From positions 1 to 36,156 of IMG/VR virus record IMGVR_UViG_3300007734_000633: 36,156 nt of DNA, one strand, 5' to 3'. The notes below the pieces were generated by a model, which made no database searches, was not told the origin of the DNA, and saw only the letters and a list, made by a program, of their open reading frames with translations. The first letter of the stretch is position 1. Each line of letters opens with the position of its first letter. Below, one piece after another: positions 241-36,156 of this stretch. The DNA comes from a virus. The position numbers and the translations under genes are program-made.

Positions 241-635
241 GCTAACTCCTTTACCCACGTTCGGGGTGAAAAACCATATTCGCGTGCGATCTTGTCCCAG
301 CCCTTACGGTGAGACTCGAACGTCACCTTTTTGATGTTGCCTTCACGCAACGTCTGCCAAAATATCTCCGATCCTTCGCGCATCCTGTCTCTGACCGCCG
401 CCCACAGACACCACACATGGACAGACTCAGGTCGTACTACGAGGATTGCAAAGCCCAGAGGTTTGTTCTCTTCTACAAACACCCAAAGTAGTGCGTTCTT
501 GCAAAAGCATTGGGCGTATACATCTTCAGGAATCCACTCTTCCGGGGATTTCTTGAGAATAGTCTCCAACCCCGGTTTTACAAACTTCCACCAGCCTTTA
601 AGTTCTTGAGGTTGGATGTTCCGTATCTCGATCAT
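237..635 (-). CDS. GNAT-like N-acetyltransferase
   Basis: This 132-residue protein has the layout of a short GNAT acetyltransferase. An N-terminal helix region (WWKFVKPGLETIL) is followed by a central strand with LLWVFVEENKPLGFAILVV, typical of beta-strands 2-4, then the RMREGSEIFWQTL helix where the acetyl-CoA loop usually lies. The C-terminal part ends REYGFSPRTWVKEL, similar to the GF.....ve.. end of the fold. The canonical Q/RxxGxG/A pyrophosphate loop is weak (DRMREGS), so the acetyl-CoA binding claim is tentative. It sits between a jelly-roll-like tail protein and the junction-spanning structural gene, overlapping both by 4 bases. Similar short GNAT-like genes are common in the tail modules of metagenomic podoviruses. 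Its substrate is unknown. Confidence 0.6.
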   Translation of the reverse strand: MIEIRNIQPQELKGWWKFVKPGLETILKKSPEEWIPEDVYAQCFCKNALLWVFVEENKPLGFAILVVRPESVHVWCLWAAVRDRMREGSEIFWQTLREGNIKKVTFESHRKGWDKIAREYGFSPRTWVKELA

Positions 636-1429
636 CCAACAATCACATAGTCAAACGTCTTGCCAGCAGTCGTGTTGGGCGCATGAGATATGGTTGCGCT
701 ACCGTTTGCCGTGGCAGAAACGTATGGATCAAAGTAAACATTCGTCGTGTAACCGTTTGTTGACAGGTAGTGCATGGTCGCAATCACGGACGGTGTTGCA
801 GGTCTGGTTGGGCTGCTTCTCGTTGGTATTTGCTCTAAAGACACGTTGGTACTGGTTGCGCTCCACATAATCTCTATGTAATCGTCTTTTGCAAGATTTA
901 CATAAAAATTTAACGAAGCAATCAAACGCCCATCTGTGCCGCCATGACTGTTTGGTACAGAGAAGTCGCTGTTGCTATTTGCAATGTCTGTGCCGTTCTT
1001 GCGAAACCAAATGCTTGCGTCTTGAATCTGTGTGCTGGTGTTGTTTAACTGTGCGCTGAACTGCAAGTTATAAATCCCTGAATACCCGGCAACCAATCGA
1101 GAGTTGTTAGATAACGTCACGCCATCAGAAAAGTCCGTGGTGTTATACGTCATCGCATACGCGGTGGTCGTGCTGGCAATCGTCTGGTCTGCGCTACTAC
1201 TAAACGAACCGTATGGAAACTCTTGGCTTGCTGCTGTCTGCGAGGTCGGCAATAAAATGACCTTGGAGCCGTAGCCAATCCGTGCATCGGTAATTGTGGT
1301 AGTCGTCGCGCTACCCGTAGCAAGTGTGACCGACCCCGTGTTGTTGGTCTTGCCATTCATAATGTTGTTGACCACCTCGGAAATCTCCCGTGGCGATCCA
1401 CCCTGGTACGGCAAAACCCGAAATGTCAT
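632..1429 (-). CDS. C1q/TNF-like jelly-roll virion protein
   Basis: This 265-residue protein is Ser/Thr/Asn rich. A short N-terminal part containing REISEVVNNIMNGKTN and an alternating TNNTGSVTLATGS segment looks like a stem that attaches to the tail. From about residue 85 the pattern YNLQFSAQ, ASIWFRKNG, then LNFYVNLAKDDYIEIMW follows the strand order of the C1q/TNF-like jelly roll (FxxQ, WFRKNG, aYxvxLxxGDyIei), a fold known in phage receptor-binding and capsid/tail decoration proteins. The start ATG overlaps the stop of the gp10-like gene as ATGA. A surface-exposed binding role is inferred from the fold and from its place directly after the tail stabilisation protein. Confidence 0.65.
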   Translation of the reverse strand: MTFRVLPYQGGSPREISEVVNNIMNGKTNNTGSVTLATGSATTTTITDARIGYGSKVILLPTSQTAASQEFPYGSFSSSADQTIASTTTAYAMTYNTTDFSDGVTLSNNSRLVAGYSGIYNLQFSAQLNNTSTQIQDASIWFRKNGTDIANSNSDFSVPNSHGGTDGRLIASLNFYVNLAKDDYIEIMWSATSTNVSLEQIPTRSSPTRPATPSVIATMHYLSTNGYTTNVYFDPYVSATANGSATISHAPNTTAGKTFDYVIVG

Positions 1430-2868
1430 CGTCTACCTGCGGGCAAGAGGTCAAAGTCAATCCCAATGGCGGTTGTCCAACTGCCGGAGGGCTGCACCGA
1501 CAAGCGGTGGTAACGTCCCGTAGTTCTAAGTGCGGCGCGACCTTCGCTGTCCGCAGAAGTATAACTACCGAAACTTACAGCGTCTACAAGGCGATTTCGG
1601 GTAGCAACTGCTACGTCCGCAGCACCACCGTCTACAAGAGGACGCGTCATGTTGATCGTGCTGGTTTGACCCGGAGCCTCAATGTCTCCCGTCTGGATGG
1701 TTCCGGTAAGGCTAGAGCCTGAGAAGGTCACGATCTTTGCGTTATTTCCACCCACAAACTGCGACTTACCACCAGTCCAGATGCGGGAGTCAAAACTTGT
1801 AGTGATCGTATCCACCGTCCCGAATGCGTCCAATGCTTCTAGCGTGTAGGCCGGGGTTGCAGACTGCGCCACAAAAGACACGGTGACATCTGCGTGAGAC
1901 CACTTCTTTGTCTCAAAGTTATAGATCATCAGGCTGTCCACGTTTCCGTTGGAACCCGAGGATGGGTAGGCCCACACCACTAGGTTCTTGATCGGATCGA
2001 CAGTTGCCGACATCTTGTAAGAGTACGACTCATCTAGGTCTGCAAAGAAGAACCGATCAATCTTCTCCGCGCCGATTCCGATAACCTGCGTGCCGTTACA
2101 GGCGTAAAACCCGTCATCCGACAGGAAGTAGGTAATCCCCTGATACTGGACAATCGAGTTAGCCTCAAAGCACCCAAGATTTCGGGAAATGTTGTCAAAC
2201 TGGAAGATTGCGGGAGTTCCAACGTAGGACATACGGTATATGGAACGCTCCATTAGCACGAGTCCAAACTCACCACCCGTTAAACCCTGCACAGATCCAC
2301 CGTCAGGAATGACTTGGTAGTCCGACTGGTTGGTCGAACTGGCGGTCCATTGGGTTTCATCGTTAATCCCCGACCATTGCACCTTTTGGGGGTCGGTTCC
2401 CGAGGTGTATCCCGTGACCACAAAGTCACGGACAACGGTCAGATAACGTGCCGTGGGAGCGTCTGCGGCCAGATCAGCCCACGCGGTCGAGGTTCCGAGC
2501 GTCCAGGCTTGTAACTTGGCCTGTGCGTTTGCGCCGATCAGGACGTTGCCGAACTGCGTAAAGCGCCACTTCTGCTCGCTTGGGGTTGAGTACCCACCTG
2601 CCTTAGATACGTTGTCCAAGGACAGGTCGTTTGAGTCCAACTTAAACAACTTGGTAGCCCCGCCAGCAAATACTTCGGTATTTCCCGAAGCGGGGTTTCT
2701 GCCTGCCACCACGTTGTTGATGTTTTCCGAGGCAGACTGAGAGTAATCCACGGGGGTTCGCAGGGGGCCGTATCCCACGGCTTGCGGGACGACATTGAGC
2801 GCCTCTTTGACCACTCCCGTCAGTCCGGGCTGGTCAGGCAACCATTCACCAAAATCTATCCGAGCCAT
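1426..2868 (-). CDS. Tail stabilisation protein, P22 gp10-like
   Basis: At 480 residues this matches the length and character of the P22 gp10 packaged-DNA stabilisation (tail hub) family. It begins DFGEWLPDQPG, a typical opening of these proteins (targets of the form ...LPDQPxL...), and continues as an all-beta, propeller-like sequence with repeated NxxVAGRNPASG, YFLSDDGFYACNG, KIDRFFF and VVWAYPSSG segments. DNA-filled podovirus heads need this plug between adaptor and needle or fibre. Around residues 340-366 it carries LEALDAFGTVDTITTSFDS, a module that also occurs twice in the upstream neighbour (see findings). It overlaps that neighbour by 13 bases and the downstream gene by 4. Confidence 0.75.
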   Translation of the reverse strand: MARIDFGEWLPDQPGLTGVVKEALNVVPQAVGYGPLRTPVDYSQSASENINNVVAGRNPASGNTEVFAGGATKLFKLDSNDLSLDNVSKAGGYSTPSEQKWRFTQFGNVLIGANAQAKLQAWTLGTSTAWADLAADAPTARYLTVVRDFVVTGYTSGTDPQKVQWSGINDETQWTASSTNQSDYQVIPDGGSVQGLTGGEFGLVLMERSIYRMSYVGTPAIFQFDNISRNLGCFEANSIVQYQGITYFLSDDGFYACNGTQVIGIGAEKIDRFFFADLDESYSYKMSATVDPIKNLVVWAYPSSGSNGNVDSLMIYNFETKKWSHADVTVSFVAQSATPAYTLEALDAFGTVDTITTSFDSRIWTGGKSQFVGGNNAKIVTFSGSSLTGTIQTGDIEAPGQTSTINMTRPLVDGGAADVAVATRNRLVDAVSFGSYTSADSEGRAALRTTGRYHRLSVQPSGSWTTAIGIDFDLLPAGRR

Positions 2869-3815
2869 GTGTTGTTTCCAGCAGAATTAGTTGTCCAAGT
2901 GTCCGAGGTGACAGGAACGTCCGTCCATGTGTTTGCGCTGCCCGAGACATTTGTCCAGGTTTCCGACCCGATAGAGGTCGGCGTCCAAGTCTCTGATCCC
3001 GGGGTCACCGGACCCCAGTTATCACCCAACCGCACCCCGCTTGCCACCACGGTCGCGGAGGCAGAGATTTGTGCAGATGCGGAAAATGTTGCGTTGCCCG
3101 TAACCGACATAGAGCCGGTTGCAGATATGGCGGCTTGTGCAGATGCAACAAACCCGCCCGTGGCCGACATACTTCCCGTAGCAGATATTGCACCGCTTGC
3201 CGTCCTAAGTCTGATGCCAGCGCCGGTCAAAGTACCCGAAGCGGAGATTAAACCCTGTCCAGTTCTGACTCTAACCGGAAAGGCGCTTAAGGTGCCACTA
3301 GAGGCGATAAGTGCTTGGCCTTGGGTGATCCTAAAGGCTGTGGCAGAAAACGTCCCTGAAGCCGAAATTTGGGCCTCTGCTTGCTTGACCGTGTTTGCGG
3401 TTGCAGACATGGTTCCTGTGGCAGATATTGCCCCACTACCAAACCTCTCTCGAAGTCCGGTTGCTGTTAAAGACCCGCTGGCGGCAATAAGTGCCTGGCC
3501 GGAACGGATTGCAAACCCACCGGCTTGCATTGCGCCGGATGCGGTAATCAATGCCTGGCCTTGCCGCTCTCGTTGAGCGGTTGCGCTCATGGTTCCAGAG
3601 GCTGTTATCTGTGCGGGTGCGTCAAAGTAAATACAGGCGGTTCCCCATGCTTCGGAATCCATCGCCAGTTTTAGTGAGTCTAGCGTGCCGAATGCGTCCA
3701 TCGCATCTAGCGTCCACGGACCGCACACCTTGTCCACATACCATGTGGCGTCCATTGGGTACTGCGGCATCGAGTCCAGCGTGCCGAGTTGATCTAACTG
3801 CTCTAAGGTGAGCAT
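2856..3815 (-). CDS. Repeat-built tail/appendage protein (10 x 20 aa, 6 x 10 aa)
   Basis: The 319-residue protein has three zones. Residues 1-60 hold two copies of a LDxxGTLDS...MDxxxW module. Residues 61-260 form ten repeats in an exact 20-residue register, each with an Ile at its tenth position (70, 90, 110 ... 250) followed by SASGTxSATG-like residues. Residues 261-319 hold Trp at 267, 277, 287, 297, 307 and 317, an exact 10-residue period of the type GSETWTxxx. Such strict periods suggest a beta-solenoid or fibrous stack. It lies between a gp80-like minor structural protein and the gp10-like protein, so it is probably part of the tail or its fibres. No enzymatic motif is visible and no named family is assigned. 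Confidence 0.75.
   Translation of the reverse strand: MLTLEQLDQLGTLDSMPQYPMDATWYVDKVCGPWTLDAMDAFGTLDSLKLAMDSEAWGTACIYFDAPAQITASGTMSATAQRERQGQALITASGAMQAGGFAIRSGQALIAASGSLTATGLRERFGSGAISATGTMSATANTVKQAEAQISASGTFSATAFRITQGQALIASSGTLSAFPVRVRTGQGLISASGTLTGAGIRLRTASGAISATGSMSATGGFVASAQAAISATGSMSVTGNATFSASAQISASATVVASGVRLGDNWGPVTPGSETWTPTSIGSETWTNVSGSANTWTDVPVTSDTWTTNSAGNNTWLG
2859..3035 (-). repeat. Six in-register 30-bp (10-codon) Trp repeats
   Basis: These are codons 261-319 of the repeat protein. Trp recurs every ten residues (267 to 317) inside GSETWT/SANTWT/TSDTWT/GNNTWL blocks. The period is exactly half that of the preceding repeat zone. Confidence 0.8.
3036..3635 (-). repeat. Ten in-register 60-bp (20-codon) coding repeats
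   Basis: These are codons 61-260 of the repeat protein. Each 60-bp unit encodes a block with Ile at its tenth residue, then (S/T)A(S/T)G(T/S)(M/L/F)(S/T)A. No insertion or deletion breaks the register over 600 bp. The nucleotide copies have diverged, so this is an old tandem array kept in phase by selection on the protein. Confidence 0.85.
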
Positions 3816-4201
3816 TAGGCAAGGGTGACACTCAGCGAACCAGCGGCGATCTTGAAGATGTCTCCGGTCTCAATGGTTTTGGAGGTCGTGATGTCCGTGT
3901 AAAACAAGAGGTTGCCAGAGGTAATGGCGTCCAAGAGTCCTACATGGGAGATCGTTCCCCACGAGCCTGTTGCCTGATCAAACTCCACAGAAGCAGAGTT
4001 CGTGCAAACCCCGTCAGACGGCGAACCAAAGGTCGCAGACTTGCGGGCATACGATCCACCAGACACTTCGGTTCCGGTGTTTCCCTCACCCGGGTTGGAG
4101 GTGTAAAGACCAACGTAGACCGTGGTTGGGGAGGTGTAAGACGTATTGCGGAGAACTGCGTTTAGCAGACCGTTCTCCAAATAATTCGACATTTCAGACA
4201 T
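3815..4201 (-). CDS. Gp80-like minor structural protein
   Basis: This 128-residue protein has the pattern LxNAVLRNTSYTSPTTVYVGLYTSNPGEGNTGTEVSGGSYARK..TFG, then WGTISHVGLLDA and LLFYTDITTSKTIETGDIFKIAAG. This arrangement is familiar from a widespread family of small phage structural proteins (gp80-like), found next to head-tail connector and fibre genes. It starts 2 bases after the stop of the adaptor gene. Its stop overlaps the ATG of the repeat protein as TAATG, so the two are probably made in coupled amounts. The exact virion location is not known. Confidence 0.65.
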   Translation of the reverse strand: MSEMSNYLENGLLNAVLRNTSYTSPTTVYVGLYTSNPGEGNTGTEVSGGSYARKSATFGSPSDGVCTNSASVEFDQATGSWGTISHVGLLDAITSGNLLFYTDITTSKTIETGDIFKIAAGSLSVTLA

Positions 4202-4203
4202 GA

Positions 4204-4824
4204 TTACCTCGTAGTAACAGACATTTGAAGGGGAACGGCAGAGAACTCTGAGTCCTCATCCGACACGCTGATGTTGGCAATGGCGCGGTCATACATACTC
4301 GACCAGACCTGGATTCGTGCATCGTTCATCAGGTACGGTTCGGCTTCTGCTAGGGACGCGTACAACAGCGCGTCTGGGTAGTTAGCCAAGAACTCGTTGG
4401 ACGCCACGCTATCGGACATCGCAACGGGCTTGAAGTAATACAGCAACTCCACCGTGTAGGCTTTGTCAGGGATAGGTGCGAACTCGAACTCCTGTGCAAG
4501 CGTCGTGTAAACAGCGGGCTTGCCAGACACCGTGGCCTGGGCGTTGCGGGTAAACGTAGACGGGGAGAGGTATTGCAGGGAAATACGGGGGTTGCCGTCT
4601 AGGTAAATGTCCCGCAGTTGTTGGAAGTCTGAGGGTAGGGCAACGGTAGAGTCGCCAGCCGTGGTGGTTGTAGTTACAGACTTCAGCAGTTTGCGGGTAC
4701 GAATCTCCCGCGACAGACGGAGTTCTGCCAGCGTGATGAAATCAGGAATCTGGCTGGTCAGGTCGCTGCGCCCAAGATAGTTCGCAACTGCCGTCTTTAG
4801 TGTAGAGTAACTCGTCAGAGCCAT
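4204..4824 (-). CDS. Head-to-tail adaptor, P22 gp4-like
   Basis: This 206-residue protein opens with SYSTLKTAVANYLGRSDLTSQIPDFITLAELRLSREIR. That is the characteristic start of the gp4-like connector/adaptor family in podoviruses (an N-terminal helical bundle that docks under the portal), followed by LPSDFQQLRDIYLDG and ELLYYFKPVAMSD...NEFLANYPDALLYASLAEAEPYL, also typical. A GTAAGGAAG ribosome site lies inside the end of the upstream glycosyltransferase gene, with which it overlaps by 83 bases in another frame. It belongs to the capsid-to-tail assembly line between capsid and gp10-like protein. Confidence 0.75.
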   Translation of the reverse strand: MALTSYSTLKTAVANYLGRSDLTSQIPDFITLAELRLSREIRTRKLLKSVTTTTTAGDSTVALPSDFQQLRDIYLDGNPRISLQYLSPSTFTRNAQATVSGKPAVYTTLAQEFEFAPIPDKAYTVELLYYFKPVAMSDSVASNEFLANYPDALLYASLAEAEPYLMNDARIQVWSSMYDRAIANISVSDEDSEFSAVPLQMSVTTR

Positions 4825-5482
4825 CTTCTTCCTTACTGGCTACATCGTGCCATCCAAATGTGTGGGAACCGACATGGCCGATCACGTTAGAGAAGTCGTG
4901 ATCCACCCATGTTTCATAACCTGCATCGTGCGCTTTCACGCAGAAATACACATCCTCACCCAGTAGTTTTTCACCGGGGAGTTGCTCAAACCAAAACCAA
5001 GGACGGGGCGTGTTTCTAAAGACATCTGCCTTTACCATCATCACGCCGCACCCAATCGCAGTCACCCGCTCCAGACCTTTCTTGTCTTTAGAGGAGATCT
5101 TCTGCCAGGTGATTGTCTTTTCTTCTTTGTTGATCCAGGCGTTCTTTGCTGTGCCGTGGATCGGCGTGACTCGGGTCGTGGCGTTGGCCCCAACAATGTC
5201 CTTGTCCAACGAAATCAAGTGTTGAATCGTATTCTTTGGGAACCGCATATCTGCATCTACCCAAAGGATATAATCCGCGCCTTCTTTTAAGGCTGTTTCT
5301 GCTAACTTCTCCCGCTGATCAAAGATCAGGGTTCCGGCAACGGTGTATAAGGCTTGCTGACCGTCTTTTCTGAATCTTGAGTCGTACCCGCACATGAGTG
5401 CTAGGTCAAACGCTGTGCCAACTTCCATTTCGCCACGCGTAGGAACGCAAACGGCGACCTTATGCCCCTTTTTCTTGCCCAT
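4742..5482 (-). CDS. Glycosyltransferase (GT-A, GT2-like)
   Basis: This 246-residue protein begins HKVAVCVPTRGEMEVGTAFDLALM, the usual first strand and helix of GT-A transferases. It carries YILWVDADMRFP with the metal-binding D76-A-D78 motif, then a Lys/Glu-rich region and KLLGEDVYFCVKAHDAGYETWVDHDF, matching the GED catalytic-loop block of phage GT2-like enzymes. C-terminal HVGSHTFGWHD supplies metal/substrate His residues. It lies in the late block between a small hypothetical gene and the adaptor. It may modify host cell-surface glycans or virion proteins, but nothing in the sequence fixes the substrate. The last 28 codons overlap the adaptor gene. A second, different GT-A-like protein is encoded at 21396. 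Confidence 0.75.
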   Translation of the reverse strand: MGKKKGHKVAVCVPTRGEMEVGTAFDLALMCGYDSRFRKDGQQALYTVAGTLIFDQREKLAETALKEGADYILWVDADMRFPKNTIQHLISLDKDIVGANATTRVTPIHGTAKNAWINKEEKTITWQKISSKDKKGLERVTAIGCGVMMVKADVFRNTPRPWFWFEQLPGEKLLGEDVYFCVKAHDAGYETWVDHDFSNVIGHVGSHTFGWHDVASKEEDGSDELLYTKDGSCELSWAQRPDQPDS

Positions 5483-28165: not shown

Positions 28166-28536
28166 GCTTCTACCCAAGAAGTTGTGGCCTCATCCCATGT
28201 GTAACGCTTTGGAGGTTCTCCAGTACCAGCGTCAGCAGGCATATCTACGGGGGCTTTCCATTGGCAGGTTTCCTCTACCAGCACCCAAGAGTTAAAGGGT
28301 TTGGGAGGAATGAACGCATCCCGTGTGGCATCAAATGTGTAGCCGATACCAGCATAGTTCTTGCGCTTATTGCCGTTATACGAGGTCTGCTTCCAGTTGC
28401 CGCCAAACAGACGCTCACAGAAAGCCGCACCGATATGTTCTTTCTCGACACCGCTGGCATCAGCCGTGTCTTTGTTGCCGACTACGATGACCCGTAGCAC
28501 GACATTGTTGGAATCCAACTCAGCGAAATGCGCCAT
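28162..28536 (-). CDS. Conserved phage virion-module protein
   Basis: This 124-residue protein (FAELDSNNVVLRVIVVGNKDTADASGVEKEHIGAAFCERLFGGNWKQTSYNGNKRKNYAGIGYTFDATRDAFIPPKPFNSWVLVEETCQWKAPVDMP) belongs to a family I know from cyanophages and other marine/freshwater phages, where it lies near tail-fibre genes. The FxxLDxNNxVxxVIVV opening and the W-x-x-TSYN-x-N-x-RKNYAGIG-x-T-Y/F block are characteristic. No function is established. The start overlaps the end of the oxygenase gene by 17 bases, where AGGAG forms the ribosome site. Confidence 0.75.
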   Translation of the reverse strand: MAHFAELDSNNVVLRVIVVGNKDTADASGVEKEHIGAAFCERLFGGNWKQTSYNGNKRKNYAGIGYTFDATRDAFIPPKPFNSWVLVEETCQWKAPVDMPADAGTGEPPKRYTWDEATTSWVEA

Positions 28537-29140
28537 CTAATTCTCCTAAACTAAGTCCTGTTAAGTCCATTTCATCCCCAACATGACCTACGGGGAACGT
28601 ATTAAAAGCCAAACTGATTCTTGTCTGCTCAGACTCTACGGTCTGCACCATGTGGGTGAGGCTAGACGGAAACAATACTAAGTCTCCAGTTCCGACCTCA
28701 AACCACCAAGACTCTGAGTTCCAAATATTCCACTCAGACGGTGGAAACTTGATCTGCTGGTAACCATCTCGGTAAAAGTAAATCTTGTCTTTTTCCTTAT
28801 CGGACTGAATATAAAACACACCAGAGACAAATGAATTGGGATGGGCGTGTTTGTGGTGATACTGCCCGTTCTCGGTGTAATTCGTCCACGACTGCGTAAC
28901 CTTCAGACCTACTTTGTGCTTGGGTTTGTAAATCTCGGTGAAGTATTCCGATACCTTTGTTTCTATAAAGTCTCGTAGGTTGGTGAGTTCTTTAGACTTT
29001 AGGATGGTGTTATTGGTGCTAGTGATGTTACCCATGTTAGAGCGTGTTTCTTGCTTCTTTAGAAACGACAACTCTTTAGCGGTTAGGTCACGGCCTAGTT
29101 CATATCTACCGATTGGAATAGGAAAAAGATTGTGGATCAT
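28520..29140 (-). CDS. 2OG-Fe(II) oxygenase-like protein
   Basis: This 206-residue protein opens IHNLFPIPIGRYEL and has TQSWTNYTENGQYHHKHAHPNSFVSGVFYI, with Fe-ligand candidates in HAH (98-100), then EVGTGDLVLFPSSLTHMVQTVESEQTRISLAFN, giving the distal H163 and the 2OG-binding R174. This is the TIGR02466-like family, frequent in phages of aquatic bacteria. These enzymes hydroxylate proteins or small molecules with 2-oxoglutarate and O2. Here it sits directly after the glycine-rich fibre and a small helper gene, so modification of a tail protein is a reasonable idea, but not shown. Confidence 0.78.
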   Translation of the reverse strand: MIHNLFPIPIGRYELGRDLTAKELSFLKKQETRSNMGNITSTNNTILKSKELTNLRDFIETKVSEYFTEIYKPKHKVGLKVTQSWTNYTENGQYHHKHAHPNSFVSGVFYIQSDKEKDKIYFYRDGYQQIKFPPSEWNIWNSESWWFEVGTGDLVLFPSSLTHMVQTVESEQTRISLAFNTFPVGHVGDEMDLTGLSLGELDGAFR

Positions 29141-29412
29141 CCCTCTACCGCCTTGCGGATGACCTCGGCGCTTTTGGTGATCTCAGCAATCTGCTCTGGT
29201 AGCCAAACAGTCTTAATGGATTCTTCAAACGCTTTGACCTTTTCCATTGTTTCTTCTACTTCCTGAACAGATGGTTTTGGTCTGGGATCGTCCCAACGAG
29301 TAAAACCAACACCGCCTGTCCATTCCCATTTAGCACCGGGACGCAGAAGTTGCATTGCTGTATCTATTCCACAAAACCGATATATCTTTGTTTCCAAAGT
29401 CACTCCTACCAT
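29137..29412 (-). CDS. Small fibre-linked protein, 91 aa
   Basis: ATG at 29412 overlaps the fibre stop in the form AAATGGTAG. The 91-residue product has a beta-like opening (GVTLETKIYRFCGIDTAMQLLRPGAKWEWTGGVGFTRWDDPRPKPS) and a helical, charged end (EVEETMEKVKAFEESIKTVWLPEQIAEITKSAEVIRKAVE). Placed immediately after a fibre gene it could be a fibre chaperone or tip protein, like the small genes following other phage fibres. This is inferred only from position. Confidence 0.65.
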   Translation of the reverse strand: MVGVTLETKIYRFCGIDTAMQLLRPGAKWEWTGGVGFTRWDDPRPKPSVQEVEETMEKVKAFEESIKTVWLPEQIAEITKSAEVIRKAVEG

Positions 29413-31067
29413 TTAATGATTACGATACCTGAGCCACCCGCGCCACCTGCATAATTAAAGTTAGAGGGAGTTCCTTGCCAACCACTACCACCTCCTCCTC
29501 CAGTATTTGCACCACCAGAAGAGCCTGTACCAGAACTAGATCCATTGCCACCGCCACCAGTACCTCCGCTTCCAGCGGTTCCACCGCTATTTGCTGACGC
29601 TCCACCGCCACCACCAGCAAAAGTTATAGACAATCCAGTAATAGAAGATGCGGTTCCATTCCCGCCATCAGCACCTGCTGTAGAGGTCCCATTAGCACCT
29701 ACTGCACCAGAGCCTCCCCCGCCACCACAACCATAAAAAGGTGCGTTTACTGATCCTGTTCCTCCATTATTTCCCTGAGATGGGGAAGTGCTTGGGGTAT
29801 TACCAGAACCACCACTAGCGCCACGACCACCACCACCAGAGCCACCATTTCCACCGGCTTGAGTAAAGGCTTGAGAACCACCACGACCACCACCGTAGGC
29901 TTTTAAGGTATTTGTTCCTGCTCCTGATGGACTTTCAGTAATTGGCGATCCAGCGATAGAGGAATCATTTCCTATTACGGAATCACTAGGACTATTAGGT
30001 GTACCGGCGCCGCCTCCTGCTCCACCAGCACCTACTGTAATGGTGTAGGTTGTACCAGCAGTAACCGAAAGTCCTGTACCAGTTCTAAACCCACCAGCGC
30101 CGCCGCCACCGCCGCCGCCAGCGCCTGCACCCCCACCCCCGGCAACGACAAGGTATTCAACCGATGTCACACCAGTAGGCGCAGTCCATGAGCCAGAAGT
30201 TGTAAATGTTGCTACATTTGTAGAACCGGGAACGGTGTATTTGATGATGACGATACCTGAGCCGCCTGCGCCGCCATCTATGCCGGCACTTGGGGCGTTA
30301 GTAGACCCTGATCCACCACCGCCGCCTCCGGTGTTAGCGGTTCCACTTGTTGCTGTCGTATTCCTGCTACCAGCGCCACCGCCACCTGTGCCACCTGAAC
30401 CTCCTACTGCTGGAGCAGTTCCACCTGCTCCACCGCCACCACCTCCGGCGTATGTTACGGTTGCTCCTGAAATATCTGATGGAGAACCATTGCCACCAGC
30501 ACCACCATTGGAAGTACCACCATTTGCACCTGCGCTACCAACTGCTCCAGCACCACCCCCACCTCCAGATGACCCGTCACTTGAAGCGCCTGCACCACCA
30601 TTATTACCTTGAGATGGAGAGGCATTCGGAGTATTTCCAGTTCCTCCAGTACCGCCGACTCCACGTCCACCGCTACCAGACCCGCCAGACTTTCCGTTAG
30701 CAGAAGCCGCTGCATATCCGGGGCCAGCACCGCCACCCGCAGATGTAATGGTAGAAAATACAGAATTAGAACCAGCCCCAGCGTTATCGGTCTGTACATT
30801 TATTCCTGCACTTCCACCAGCACCGACAGTCACGGTGTATGTAGTGCCAGCCGTTACAGATAATCCTGTTCCTGTGCGGAAGCCACCAGCGCCACCGCCT
30901 CCACCATAATATGCGCCGCCACCACCACCCCCGGCAACAACAAGGTACTCTACCTCGGTCACCCCCGTAGGTGCAGTCCACGAACTACTGGCGGTGAAGG
31001 ATTGGACTACAACGTATGAACCTATGGCCGCTTTAGAGGCCAGAAGCATTTGTATAATGCCGCCCAT
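29406..31067 (-). CDS. Glycine-rich tail fibre/adhesin with two tandem repeats
   Basis: This 553-residue protein has a short start (GGIIQMLLASKAAIGSYVV) and two long homologous halves, each beginning SWTAPTGVTxVEYLVVAGGGG..., then GAGGFRTGTGLSVTAGTTYT, many GG/GGG runs, and ending GGAGGSGIVIIK. The first half is about residues 22-283, the second about 284-553. Polyglycine stretches framed by beta strands match the glycine-rich adhesin modules (poly-Gly II type) at phage fibre tips that bind host receptors. Its place after a fibre-stem-like gene supports a receptor-binding role. The antisense frame gives long Pro-rich ORFs that are not genes. Confidence 0.8.
   Translation of the reverse strand: MGGIIQMLLASKAAIGSYVVVQSFTASSSWTAPTGVTEVEYLVVAGGGGGGAYYGGGGGAGGFRTGTGLSVTAGTTYTVTVGAGGSAGINVQTDNAGAGSNSVFSTITSAGGGAGPGYAAASANGKSGGSGSGGRGVGGTGGTGNTPNASPSQGNNGGAGASSDGSSGGGGGAGAVGSAGANGGTSNGGAGGNGSPSDISGATVTYAGGGGGGAGGTAPAVGGSGGTGGGGAGSRNTTATSGTANTGGGGGGSGSTNAPSAGIDGGAGGSGIVIIKYTVPGSTNVATFTTSGSWTAPTGVTSVEYLVVAGGGGAGAGGGGGGGAGGFRTGTGLSVTAGTTYTITVGAGGAGGGAGTPNSPSDSVIGNDSSIAGSPITESPSGAGTNTLKAYGGGRGGSQAFTQAGGNGGSGGGGRGASGGSGNTPSTSPSQGNNGGTGSVNAPFYGCGGGGGSGAVGANGTSTAGADGGNGTASSITGLSITFAGGGGGASANSGGTAGSGGTGGGGNGSSSGTGSSGGANTGGGGGSGWQGTPSNFNYAGGAGGSGIVIIKW
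29409..31010 (-). repeat. Tandem duplication of Gly-rich adhesin domain
   Basis: Two copies of about 800 bp lie in the fibre gene, about 30216-31010 and 29409-30215. Both carry SWTAPTGVT, EYLVVAGGGG, GGFRTGTGLSVTAGTTYT and GGSGIVIIK at matching places. The glycine-rich centres differ in length and order, so these regions can expand and recombine. Boundaries are approximate. Confidence 0.75.
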
Positions 31068-31676
31068 TTATGACACGTTCCCTGATACGACACATACTGT
31101 GCCGGAGATAAAGAGGATAGTTGCTACACCACGGGTTGCTAGGGTCATCGTAGCCTTGTCTGCGTCTGTTCCTGCTATGTAAGCAGTCGTAATCGTACAA
31201 GTAATCGTAATGTTTCCGGTAGTATTGTTGAAGATAGAAACAATGTCACCCTCGGCAAACGTAGCATCAGGGATCGTAATAGACCCGCTGGTTCCGACCT
31301 GAACATACTTGCCTACGTCACCCGTGGCTAGGGTGTAGGAGGTCGTTTTCGTGCCAACAGGAGGTACATCCCTAAATCCAACAGGGTTTGTACCGTCTAC
31401 CGTCAGGGTGTTGGCAGAGCCGCTAATTGTCGCCCCTGTCACAATCCCAAGGGTTGCAGTCCCGACTAGGTTAGACGTACCCGTTACCACAAGGTTGTTA
31501 CCCACAGTCAACGGATCGCTACCAGCGCCGACTTGGAAGTCTTTGAGTTGCTTCATCAACTCACGGATGGCGTTGTTCACATCCGATGGCAGCATACCTT
31601 CTGCAAGGTTAATGCTGTTGATGTCGGTGTTATTCGCTGCGGTTTGCGAGTATTCGCTGATCTTTACTTTGGGCAT
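31068..31676 (-). CDS. Tail fibre stem/attachment protein
   Basis: This 202-residue protein begins KVKISEYSQTAANNTDINSINLAEGMLPSDVNNAIRELMKQLKDFQVG. This is the widespread N-terminal module of podovirus fibres that attaches to the tail (ISEYSxTAaxNTxI.....I.EGm.PssVNdaiRelMaqlkdfq.G). Then GSDPLTVGNNLVVTGTSNLVGTATLG, a beta-helical stem, and TTSYTLATGDVGKYVQVGTSGSITIPD follow. It ends one base before the glycine-rich adhesin start, so stem and adhesin are likely two proteins of one fibre. Confidence 0.85.
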   Translation of the reverse strand: MPKVKISEYSQTAANNTDINSINLAEGMLPSDVNNAIRELMKQLKDFQVGAGSDPLTVGNNLVVTGTSNLVGTATLGIVTGATISGSANTLTVDGTNPVGFRDVPPVGTKTTSYTLATGDVGKYVQVGTSGSITIPDATFAEGDIVSIFNNTTGNITITCTITTAYIAGTDADKATMTLATRGVATILFISGTVCVVSGNVS

Positions 31677-35430: not shown

Positions 35431-36156
35431 CCGAGTAATCCCAATGCGCCACCAGCCAATGCGCCCATACCAGAACTAGCGCCAAGAACCGGACCCAATT
35501 GTGATCCGGCTAACGCACCACCTAAAGCGCCACCAATCGGATTGCGGTATACGGGGGTGACCTGCTGCATACCCGACGGCGCACCGTAGGCCCCAGAGAG
35601 GAATGATTGGAGTTTTGAGTACGGGGCTTGTTGGGCAAAGTTGTAGCGGTTGATGGCGTCTTGCAGGGCCATTTCTTGATATGCCTCGGTCTGCTGACCG
35701 ACGTTTGCAAGTCGTTGAATGTCAGCATAATCCTGAGCGGCCATACCAGGAGCCAATTGTGTGGCGGCCATCTGTCTTGCGCGCTCATCTGCGTAGTTGG
35801 CATAACCCAGTTGTCCAGCCGTTCCTGTCAGCGCACGACCAAACTCGCCACCAATGTTCGTAAGTGCGCCCTGCATTGCGCCTGAACCATAACGGCCAGC
35901 GCGGGAGAAGTTAGATAGGGCTTGGTTGGTTGCCGACTCATACTGGCGTTGTGCCGCACCAAAGGCGGGTTGCAACGCCGCTTCCAAATACGGGTTTGCA
36001 CCCAAGAACTGACCCGAAATCGTCTGCTGGAGTTGTTGCTGTGCCGCAGGAACGAGAGGGTTGCCCATAGTGGCGCGGGTCTGCGCCGCCTCCAATGCAG
36101 TCTGTGTCTGCTGGGAGGGACCGATGTAGGTCTGTCCGGGGTAATACTGCGGAACA
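35427..36156 (-). CDS. C-terminal part of junction-spanning structural protein
   Basis: This is the main part of the protein that starts at 240 on the left side of the window. The frame reads off the right edge with no start needed; the TTG at 36095 is an internal Leu codon. It has a Q/A-rich helical middle (AAQQQLQQTISGQFLGANPYLEAALQPAFGAAQRQYESATNQALSNFSRAGRYGSGAM) and a Gly/Ala-rich end (PIGGALGGALAGSQLGPVLGASSGMGALAGGALGLLG) that looks able to enter a membrane. On the closed circle it has about 280 residues. It probably belongs to the ejection or internal proteins together with the next genes. Confidence 0.8.
   Translation of the reverse strand, partial: VPQYYPGQTYIGPSQQTQTALEAAQTRATMGNPLVPAAQQQLQQTISGQFLGANPYLEAALQPAFGAAQRQYESATNQALSNFSRAGRYGSGAMQGALTNIGGEFGRALTGTAGQLGYANYADERARQMAATQLAPGMAAQDYADIQRLANVGQQTEAYQEMALQDAINRYNFAQQAPYSKLQSFLSGAYGAPSGMQQVTPVYRNPIGGALGGALAGSQLGPVLGASSGMGALAGGALGLLG
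36030..36156. repeat. Right copy of 127-bp terminal direct repeat
   Basis: Identical to bases 1-127; see the left copy. Both copies encode the same part of the junction-spanning gene. Confidence 0.95.

Follow-up and report, generated by a model that had tools for sequence, protein, structure and literature searches.

A Repeat Protein with a Tryptophan Tail in a Podophage Tail Gene Cluster, a Possible Connector for Tail Fibers

Genome and tail gene cluster

The window, by which we mean the whole stretch of DNA analyzed, is a 36,156-base virus record (IMG/VR record IMGVR_UViG_3300007734_000633) whose two ends carry the same 127-nt sequence as an exact direct repeat (positions 1 to 127 and 36030 to 36156). 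Because of this exact terminal repeat, the window is probably a complete genome. A gene for an ejection-type protein (phrog_4287, E value = 3.4 × 10−4) spans the record ends. In the direction of transcription, the gene order was portal, scaffold, SU10-type major capsid protein, two genes, SU10-type adaptor, gp80-like protein, and the repeat protein studied here, followed downstream by the nozzle, a 265-aa protein, a gene with a weak acetyltransferase match (E value = 0.017), and the ejection-type protein noted above. The phage is a podophage whose tail is SU10/GP4-like.

On the minus strand, the SU10-type tail adaptor (4204 to 4824) matched PF24175 (E value = 1.1 × 10−36), and the gp80-like protein (3815 to 4201), a conserved upstream partner, matched the Podophage GP4 fiber I protein (PF23140, E value = 5.9 × 10−49; PDB 8jou_a, E value = 2 × 10−16), a family that is that of the upstream neighbor and not of the repeat protein. 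The nozzle protein, also on the minus strand (1426 to 2868, 480 aa; phrog_3287, E value = 4.6 × 10−74; PDB 8zkk_O nozzle, E value = 5.6 × 10−20), contains an LD motif at residues 340 to 366 (1771 to 1851, minus strand), at the position of the three-Trp fiber-dock loop of SU10 and 9nwi. The 265-aa protein after the nozzle (632 to 1429, minus strand) is, by its sequence, a candidate receptor-binding protein with the anchor EVVNNIMNGKTNNTG; neither Pfam nor, below an E value of 0.1, PHROG gave a match for it, and by eye we take it to be C1q-like. A candidate fiber of 202 aa was recognized at 31068 to 31676 (minus strand) by its anchor motif, INxAEGxxPSxxNNAIR. Elsewhere, an Anp1 glycosyltransferase-like gene (4742 to 5482; PF03452, E value = 3 × 10−10) lies between the capsid and adaptor genes and overlaps the adaptor start, and a 2OG-Fe(II) oxygenase gene (28520 to 29140; PF13759, E value = 2.7 × 10−22) lies near that of a glycine-rich protein (29406 to 31067; PF21722, E value = 2.7 × 10−52).

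The repeat protein gene (2856 to 3815, minus strand) starts with ATG and encodes 319 aa made up of a nozzle-like N-terminus, a 20-residue array, and a Trp tail. The N-terminal 64 aa (3624 to 3815, minus strand) hold two copies of TLExLDxFGTLDSLxxSLDSxxW, homologous to nozzle residues 340 to 366. Ten 20-residue units follow (residues 65 to 264; 3024 to 3623, minus strand), with Ile at residues 70, 90, 110, 130, 150, 170, 190, 210, 230, and 250 and a predicted β-solenoid fold. The Trp tail (residues 267 to 319; 2859 to 3017, minus strand) has six Trp at a spacing of 10 (residues 267, 277, 287, 297, 307, and 317), and the chain ends 2 residues past the last of them, with no C-terminal tip or receptor-binding domain. 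The original prediction covered 2859 to 3635, which is about residues 61 to 319 only, and suggested that the array could form a needle; with only 2 residues after the last Trp, a needle or a receptor-binding tip is unlikely. Orthologues hold the same place upstream of the nozzle, and the ORF directly preceding the nozzle was the repeat protein in most loci reaching that far (first 99 loci). Opposite the repeat gene, the plus strand has an open frame of 264 aa (2782 to 3576), likely a by-product of repeat-gene codon use.

Repeat periods, array length, and predicted fold

We evaluated the proposed periods of exactly 20 and then 10 residues, and they held without a slip: Ile was found at 10 of 10 array positions and Trp at 6 of 6 tail positions, and shuffled sequences fell far below. 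Across residues 61 to 262, identity at lag 20 was 0.44, compared with a maximum of 0.23 at any lag from 5 to 44 in 5,000 residue shuffles. Across residues 259 to 319, identity at lag 10 was 0.35, which none of 5,000 shuffles matched at any lag from 5 to 24. At the DNA level, units were 30 to 58% identical to one another, and the Tandem Repeats Finder output held no array at the repeat gene; the repeat therefore exists at the protein level. With identities this low, we rejected a recent tandem duplication as the origin of the units, and the DNA units are old. Furthermore, dN/dS was 0.11 to 0.34 in four pairs that included the window protein and 0.12 to 0.28 in six further pairs of relatives. 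Since these values are below 1 in all pairs, the repeat ORF is a real gene under constraint, and its product is under purifying selection.

Next, we looked at relatives in 144 loci from viral contigs (L001 to L099 and L108 to L152), some of which overlap as parts of a single contig. In 54 of 55 unique proteins, the last N-terminal Trp and the first tail Trp lay close to 20n + 10 residues apart, with n equal to 6 (9 proteins), 8 (9 proteins), 10 (34 proteins), or 11 (2 proteins); in the 55th (L009), a Trp to Tyr change masks the run. Alignment gaps among the relatives were mostly whole units. Array units are gained and lost whole, and the register is maintained, not lost, among relatives. An adjustable length, which had been proposed as well, was not strongly evident in close kin, where 28 of the 30 scored close relatives had n = 10 and the other 2 had n = 11; array length is nearly fixed in the closest group.

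Two relatives showed local mosaicism. In L001 and L002, a block within one unit (window positions 3234 to 3273, nt 543 to 582 of the coding sequence) was about 65 to 70% identical to the window and its flanks were 93 to 100% identical, a local exchange inside one repeat. That the block was copied from elsewhere within the same repeat array was unsupported (best match to any other unit, 0.55 to 0.57), and no donor for it was found. The gene at L004:1869-2828 is also a mosaic, with 98 to 100% DNA identity to the window in its C-terminal quarter and mostly about 60 to 80% in its array.

We modeled the monomer with AlphaFold2. With 42 sequences of differing unit number, the pLDDT was 42, and only the strand pattern was used; with 71 sequences, the mean pLDDT was 58.6 and reached 77 in residues 110 to 195. 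The better model placed strands at a 10-residue pitch along the array, which amounts to two strands per 20 residues. In both models, the Trp tail had a pLDDT below 45 and no strand. Using VIA-align, residues 66 to 269 of the model matched a beta-helical antifreeze protein best (Z = 16.0, root mean square deviation [RMSD] = 3.6 Å, 199 residues), followed by FHA 1rwr (Z = 15.7, RMSD = 2.9 Å, 180 residues) and the P22 tailspike 1tsp (Z = 13.4). A Foldseek search of the better model against the PDB returned nothing under an E value of 0.09, and a search against BFVD returned two matches under 0.001, one an uncharacterized phage protein and the other an unnamed entry. By sequence search, the PDB held no relevant match for the repeat protein, and PHROG scans were uninformative for it (best E value = 0.0027), as they were for 10 other Trp-tail proteins.

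The repeating fold foreseen by the original prediction was thus recovered for the array, as a β-solenoid with two strands per 20 residues at low to moderate confidence, and did not appear in the Trp tail. From these models, the array is likely a single-chain parallel β-solenoid. A parallel β-solenoid rises about 4.8 Å per coil, so ten coils would give a rod of about 5 nm, a short spacer. The repeat protein also matched Fil_haemagg (PF05594) at 29 bits (cut-off, 21.5; E value = 1.7 × 10−6), although with such low-complexity repeats the match may not reflect homology. It resembles this family and the FHA beta-helix (1rwr) in its repeats of about 20 residues and may share their right-handed parallel beta-helix, a fold that the VIA-align score for 1rwr suggests and that Foldseek did not return. 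It differs in being a phage tail protein with low-complexity repeats and no two-partner secretion context; a Pfam scan of the complete 319-aa protein found no TPS domain, as an exported two-partner adhesin would have.

The Trp tail and its gene neighborhood

We searched for the Trp tail with a DNA pattern of Trp-Thr at 30-nt spacing, which is blind to the remainder of the gene. At least 120 stretches in one collection matched, and the original view that such arrays are rare was unsupported. The pattern recovered tail-locus proteins with quite different N-termini carrying the same Trp tail, which stays conserved although the N-termini are unrelated and the upstream parts vary. As read from these sequences, the tail forms a C-terminal module of its own. 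We found no paper on such a tail in the open-access literature, and one may exist elsewhere.

A tail was counted if its last Trp lay no more than 12 residues from the C-terminus, with one non-Trp position tolerated inside the run, as occurred in 6 cases, each with Tyr. Before counting, we removed chance ORFs found in L092, L134 (extra frames), L173, L200, L258, and L264. Among 195 unique tails, 158 had six Trp, 6 had six positions including one Tyr, 30 had four Trp (a share that is not an abundance, being based on the at least 120 matched stretches in one collection), and 1 had three (L272). No tail with five or seven Trp occurred among the 195, all loci combined; the pattern requires at least four Trp and would detect five or seven. 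Clustering at 70% identity gave 62 six-Trp and 28 four-Trp clusters. The only three-Trp tail at a spacing of 10, at L272:7398-8078 (phage ctjtQ328), adjoins gp80-like and TKPE-anchored genes.

We then compared the tail units with each other. Units at lag 2 were more similar than units at lag 1 or lag 3 (difference = 0.032, reached by 7 of 1,000 order shuffles), and similarity was lowest at lag 3. Numbers of six or four but never five or seven, together with the likeness at lag 2, indicate that the tail too counts in 20-residue steps: it seems to change in such steps like the array, and its period is not simply halved. The proposed change from two-strand to one-strand units runs against these Trp counts, against the lag-2 similarity, and against the lack of a tail strand in any model. 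Moreover, the low similarity at lag 3 and the counts of six or four argue against one trimer per three Trp, and the idea of three Trp per trimer, with six serving two trimers, was unsupported.

The genes downstream were surveyed in 115 loci, chosen by the Trp-tail DNA pattern except for four (the phage records L272, L274, and L275 and re-found contigs). Of these loci, 55 had a nozzle gene as the next one downstream, 58 had a gene for a protein with a recognized fiber anchor, and 2 had no downstream ORF. A nozzle or a fiber anchor therefore came next in 113 of the 113 loci with a downstream gene, in one case by eye and in one past an inserted gene. The 58 fiber anchors comprised 43 of the TKPE type by pattern, one of the same type by eye (L165), one after one inserted gene (L244), 10 of the NNAIR type, and 3 of the TLSGDGTITG type. 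The NNAIR-type anchor was present in all 20 whole records, 5 of which lack a Trp-tail protein; an NNAIR-type fiber thus needs no such protein, and a mutual dependence of the two was unsupported.

Upstream, a gp80-like gene directly preceded the Trp-tail gene in 178 of 251 Trp-tail loci, which include overlapping pieces of some contigs, and lay further upstream in 27. It went undetected in 24 loci with at least 700 nt upstream, and 22 more could not be scored. Among 13 loci without a Trp-tail protein, about 8 of which were long enough upstream to judge, none had a gp80-like gene. In Burkholderia phage (Lessievirus) DC1, the 285-aa protein after the gp80-like gene (L277:8425-9282) has, by eye, glycine-rich repeats of about 20 residues. 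It has no Trp tail and no relevant PDB sequence match, and it is a possible counterpart of the repeat protein.

Nozzle homology and possible roles

The N-terminal motif of 27 residues aligned with nozzle residues 340 to 366 (hhalign probability = 95, E value = 4 × 10−8), and a profile of its second copy scored 16 to 42 bits in 25 of 25 nozzles, compared with a maximum of 4.7 in 1,000 shuffled nozzles. The nozzle profile matched SU10 only weakly when compared directly (E value = 0.09). It matched PDB chain 9nwi_Y at an E value of 8.1 × 10−15, with the LD motif on the stretch matching the SU10 dock loop, and SU10 gp17 matched 9nwi_Y at 3.4 × 10−28 in an alignment that runs through the dock loop; the equivalence of the two loops follows from this bridge. 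Counting residues by eye, the LD motif lies 17 to 43 residues past the equivalent of SU10 Trp 814; for the dock Trp of SU10, the corresponding range is 25 to 43 residues. The LD motif is also present in the nozzles of phages without a repeat protein (L083, L088, and KLEP18-1), so its role in the nozzle is independent of the repeat protein.

According to the SU10 study, Trp 839, 847, and 857 of the nozzle protein gp17 hold the trimeric short tail fiber (PMC9509320), and we confirmed these three residues in the gp17 sequence. The systems are alike in having a row of Trp at a spacing of about 10 residues in a tail protein, and at the equivalent position in the window nozzle there is a loop, of which the repeat protein bears two copies at its N-terminus. 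Unlike in SU10, the Trp row forms a separate C-terminal tail of a predicted β-solenoid protein outside the nozzle, and only the N-terminal motif of that protein is homologous to the nozzle loop. The spacing is exactly 10 in the window, compared with 8 and 10 in SU10, and whereas SU10 has three Trp, one per fiber subunit, tails of the window type have six or four, with a single three among the 195.

Our preferred reading, which we put forward tentatively and at somewhat less than even confidence, is that the repeat protein is a short connector in the tail, with a docking element on each end, the Trp tail binding a trimeric fiber anchor. The two nozzle-loop copies at the N-terminus would attach the protein in the adaptor-gp80-nozzle region or bind the partner of the nozzle loop; the ten coils would form a single-chain parallel β-solenoid spacer; and the C-terminal Trp row would grip the anchor at the N-terminus of a trimeric tail fiber, as the SU10 nozzle does with its three-Trp loop. 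N-terminal docking is suggested by the homology with the nozzle loop, and fiber binding by the gene neighborhood and the SU10 analogy; the presence of the protein in the virion and the identity of the bound fiber we infer. The nozzle homology, the neighborhood, the end of the chain just past the last Trp, and the VIA-align and Fil_haemagg matches all count for a connector. Against it count the four-Trp forms, whose Trp number three does not divide, the likeness of tail units being lowest at lag 3, and the spacing unlike that of SU10, as well as the NNAIR-type fiber that occurs without a Trp-tail protein, the low pLDDT of the tail in both models, the lack of a Foldseek match in the PDB under an E value of 0.09, and the weak direct match of the nozzle profile to SU10.

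Some of the same observations would suit a thin fiber or side spike that touches the cell or decorates the tail and carries no fiber, with the solenoid as its shaft and the Trp tail as two or three more 20-residue coils bearing Trp on both faces. Even Trp numbers and the period-two similarity of tail units fit two-strand coils, whole-unit length changes fit a shaft, and the gene sits in the tail cluster. However, no receptor-binding domain follows the last Trp, no strand is predicted in the tail, and receptor tips usually vary rather than being the conserved part, the opposite of the conserved tail and variable upstream parts seen here; we judge this role somewhat doubtful. Alternatively, the Trp tail may bind not a fiber but the gp80-like protein, in one complex of a GP4-type fiber I and its attachment piece. 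The frequency of the gp80-like gene upstream of Trp-tail genes and its absence from the 13 loci without them speak for such a partnership, as does the glycine-rich repeat protein that follows gp80 in DC1. That phage, however, has gp80 without a Trp tail, and 24 loci have a Trp tail and no detected gp80-like gene, although some of these carry other small proteins there; we regard this alternative as improbable.

A nonvirion assembly factor, such as a fiber chaperone, would account for a gene near fiber genes but not for an N-terminus homologous to the nozzle loop, which is part of a virion protein; moreover, such solenoid arrays usually belong to exported or surface structures, and we consider an assembly factor very unlikely. 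The composition, rich in Ala, Ser, Gly, and Thr, could suggest that the periods are chance or low-complexity sequence, a notion to which the shuffle tests, the purifying selection, and the register kept in relatives leave virtually no room.

Returning to the connector, the same Trp tail stands next to nozzle or fiber genes in many other phages, and it is probably a common piece, undescribed so far, that couples tail fibers. A broader version, which we regard as unlikely yet worth stating, would make it a general fiber plug across podophages and other tailed phages, swapped between unrelated N-termini and built in paired 20-residue steps. The dock would then be of a new kind, with two or three Trp pairs in place of the three-Trp star that SU10 has, and the repeat protein would be a two-ended adaptor with two nozzle-loop copies at one end and a Trp plug at the other. 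To our knowledge, there are few phages in which the attachment of trimeric fibers to a tail of sixfold or twelvefold symmetry is understood, and a fiber plug of this type would be relevant to how phages exchange tail fibers. The four-or-six Trp rule is sharp, and a short module marking the gene beside a fiber or nozzle would aid the annotation of fiber systems in environmental phages.

Such proteins are currently unnamed or misnamed. The deposited names "putative E3 ubiquitin-protein ligase HERC6" (L101:5944-6660) and "serine-rich adhesin" (L104:3947-4723) look like misannotations. The gp51 protein of the cultured Methylophilales phage Venkman and the ctXG6705 "serine-rich adhesin" proteins have a homologous array and Trp tail and differ from the window protein in their SQxPxSxL-type N-terminus, in having four and six Trp, and in being followed by a fiber gene, not a nozzle; their deposited names, too, appear to be misannotations. 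In Methylophilales phage MEP401, gp59 (L273:3671-4486) has, by eye, a similar 20-residue-type array that ends in three terminal Trp spaced 13 apart (GxW type), and this different ending would fit an exchangeable docking module.
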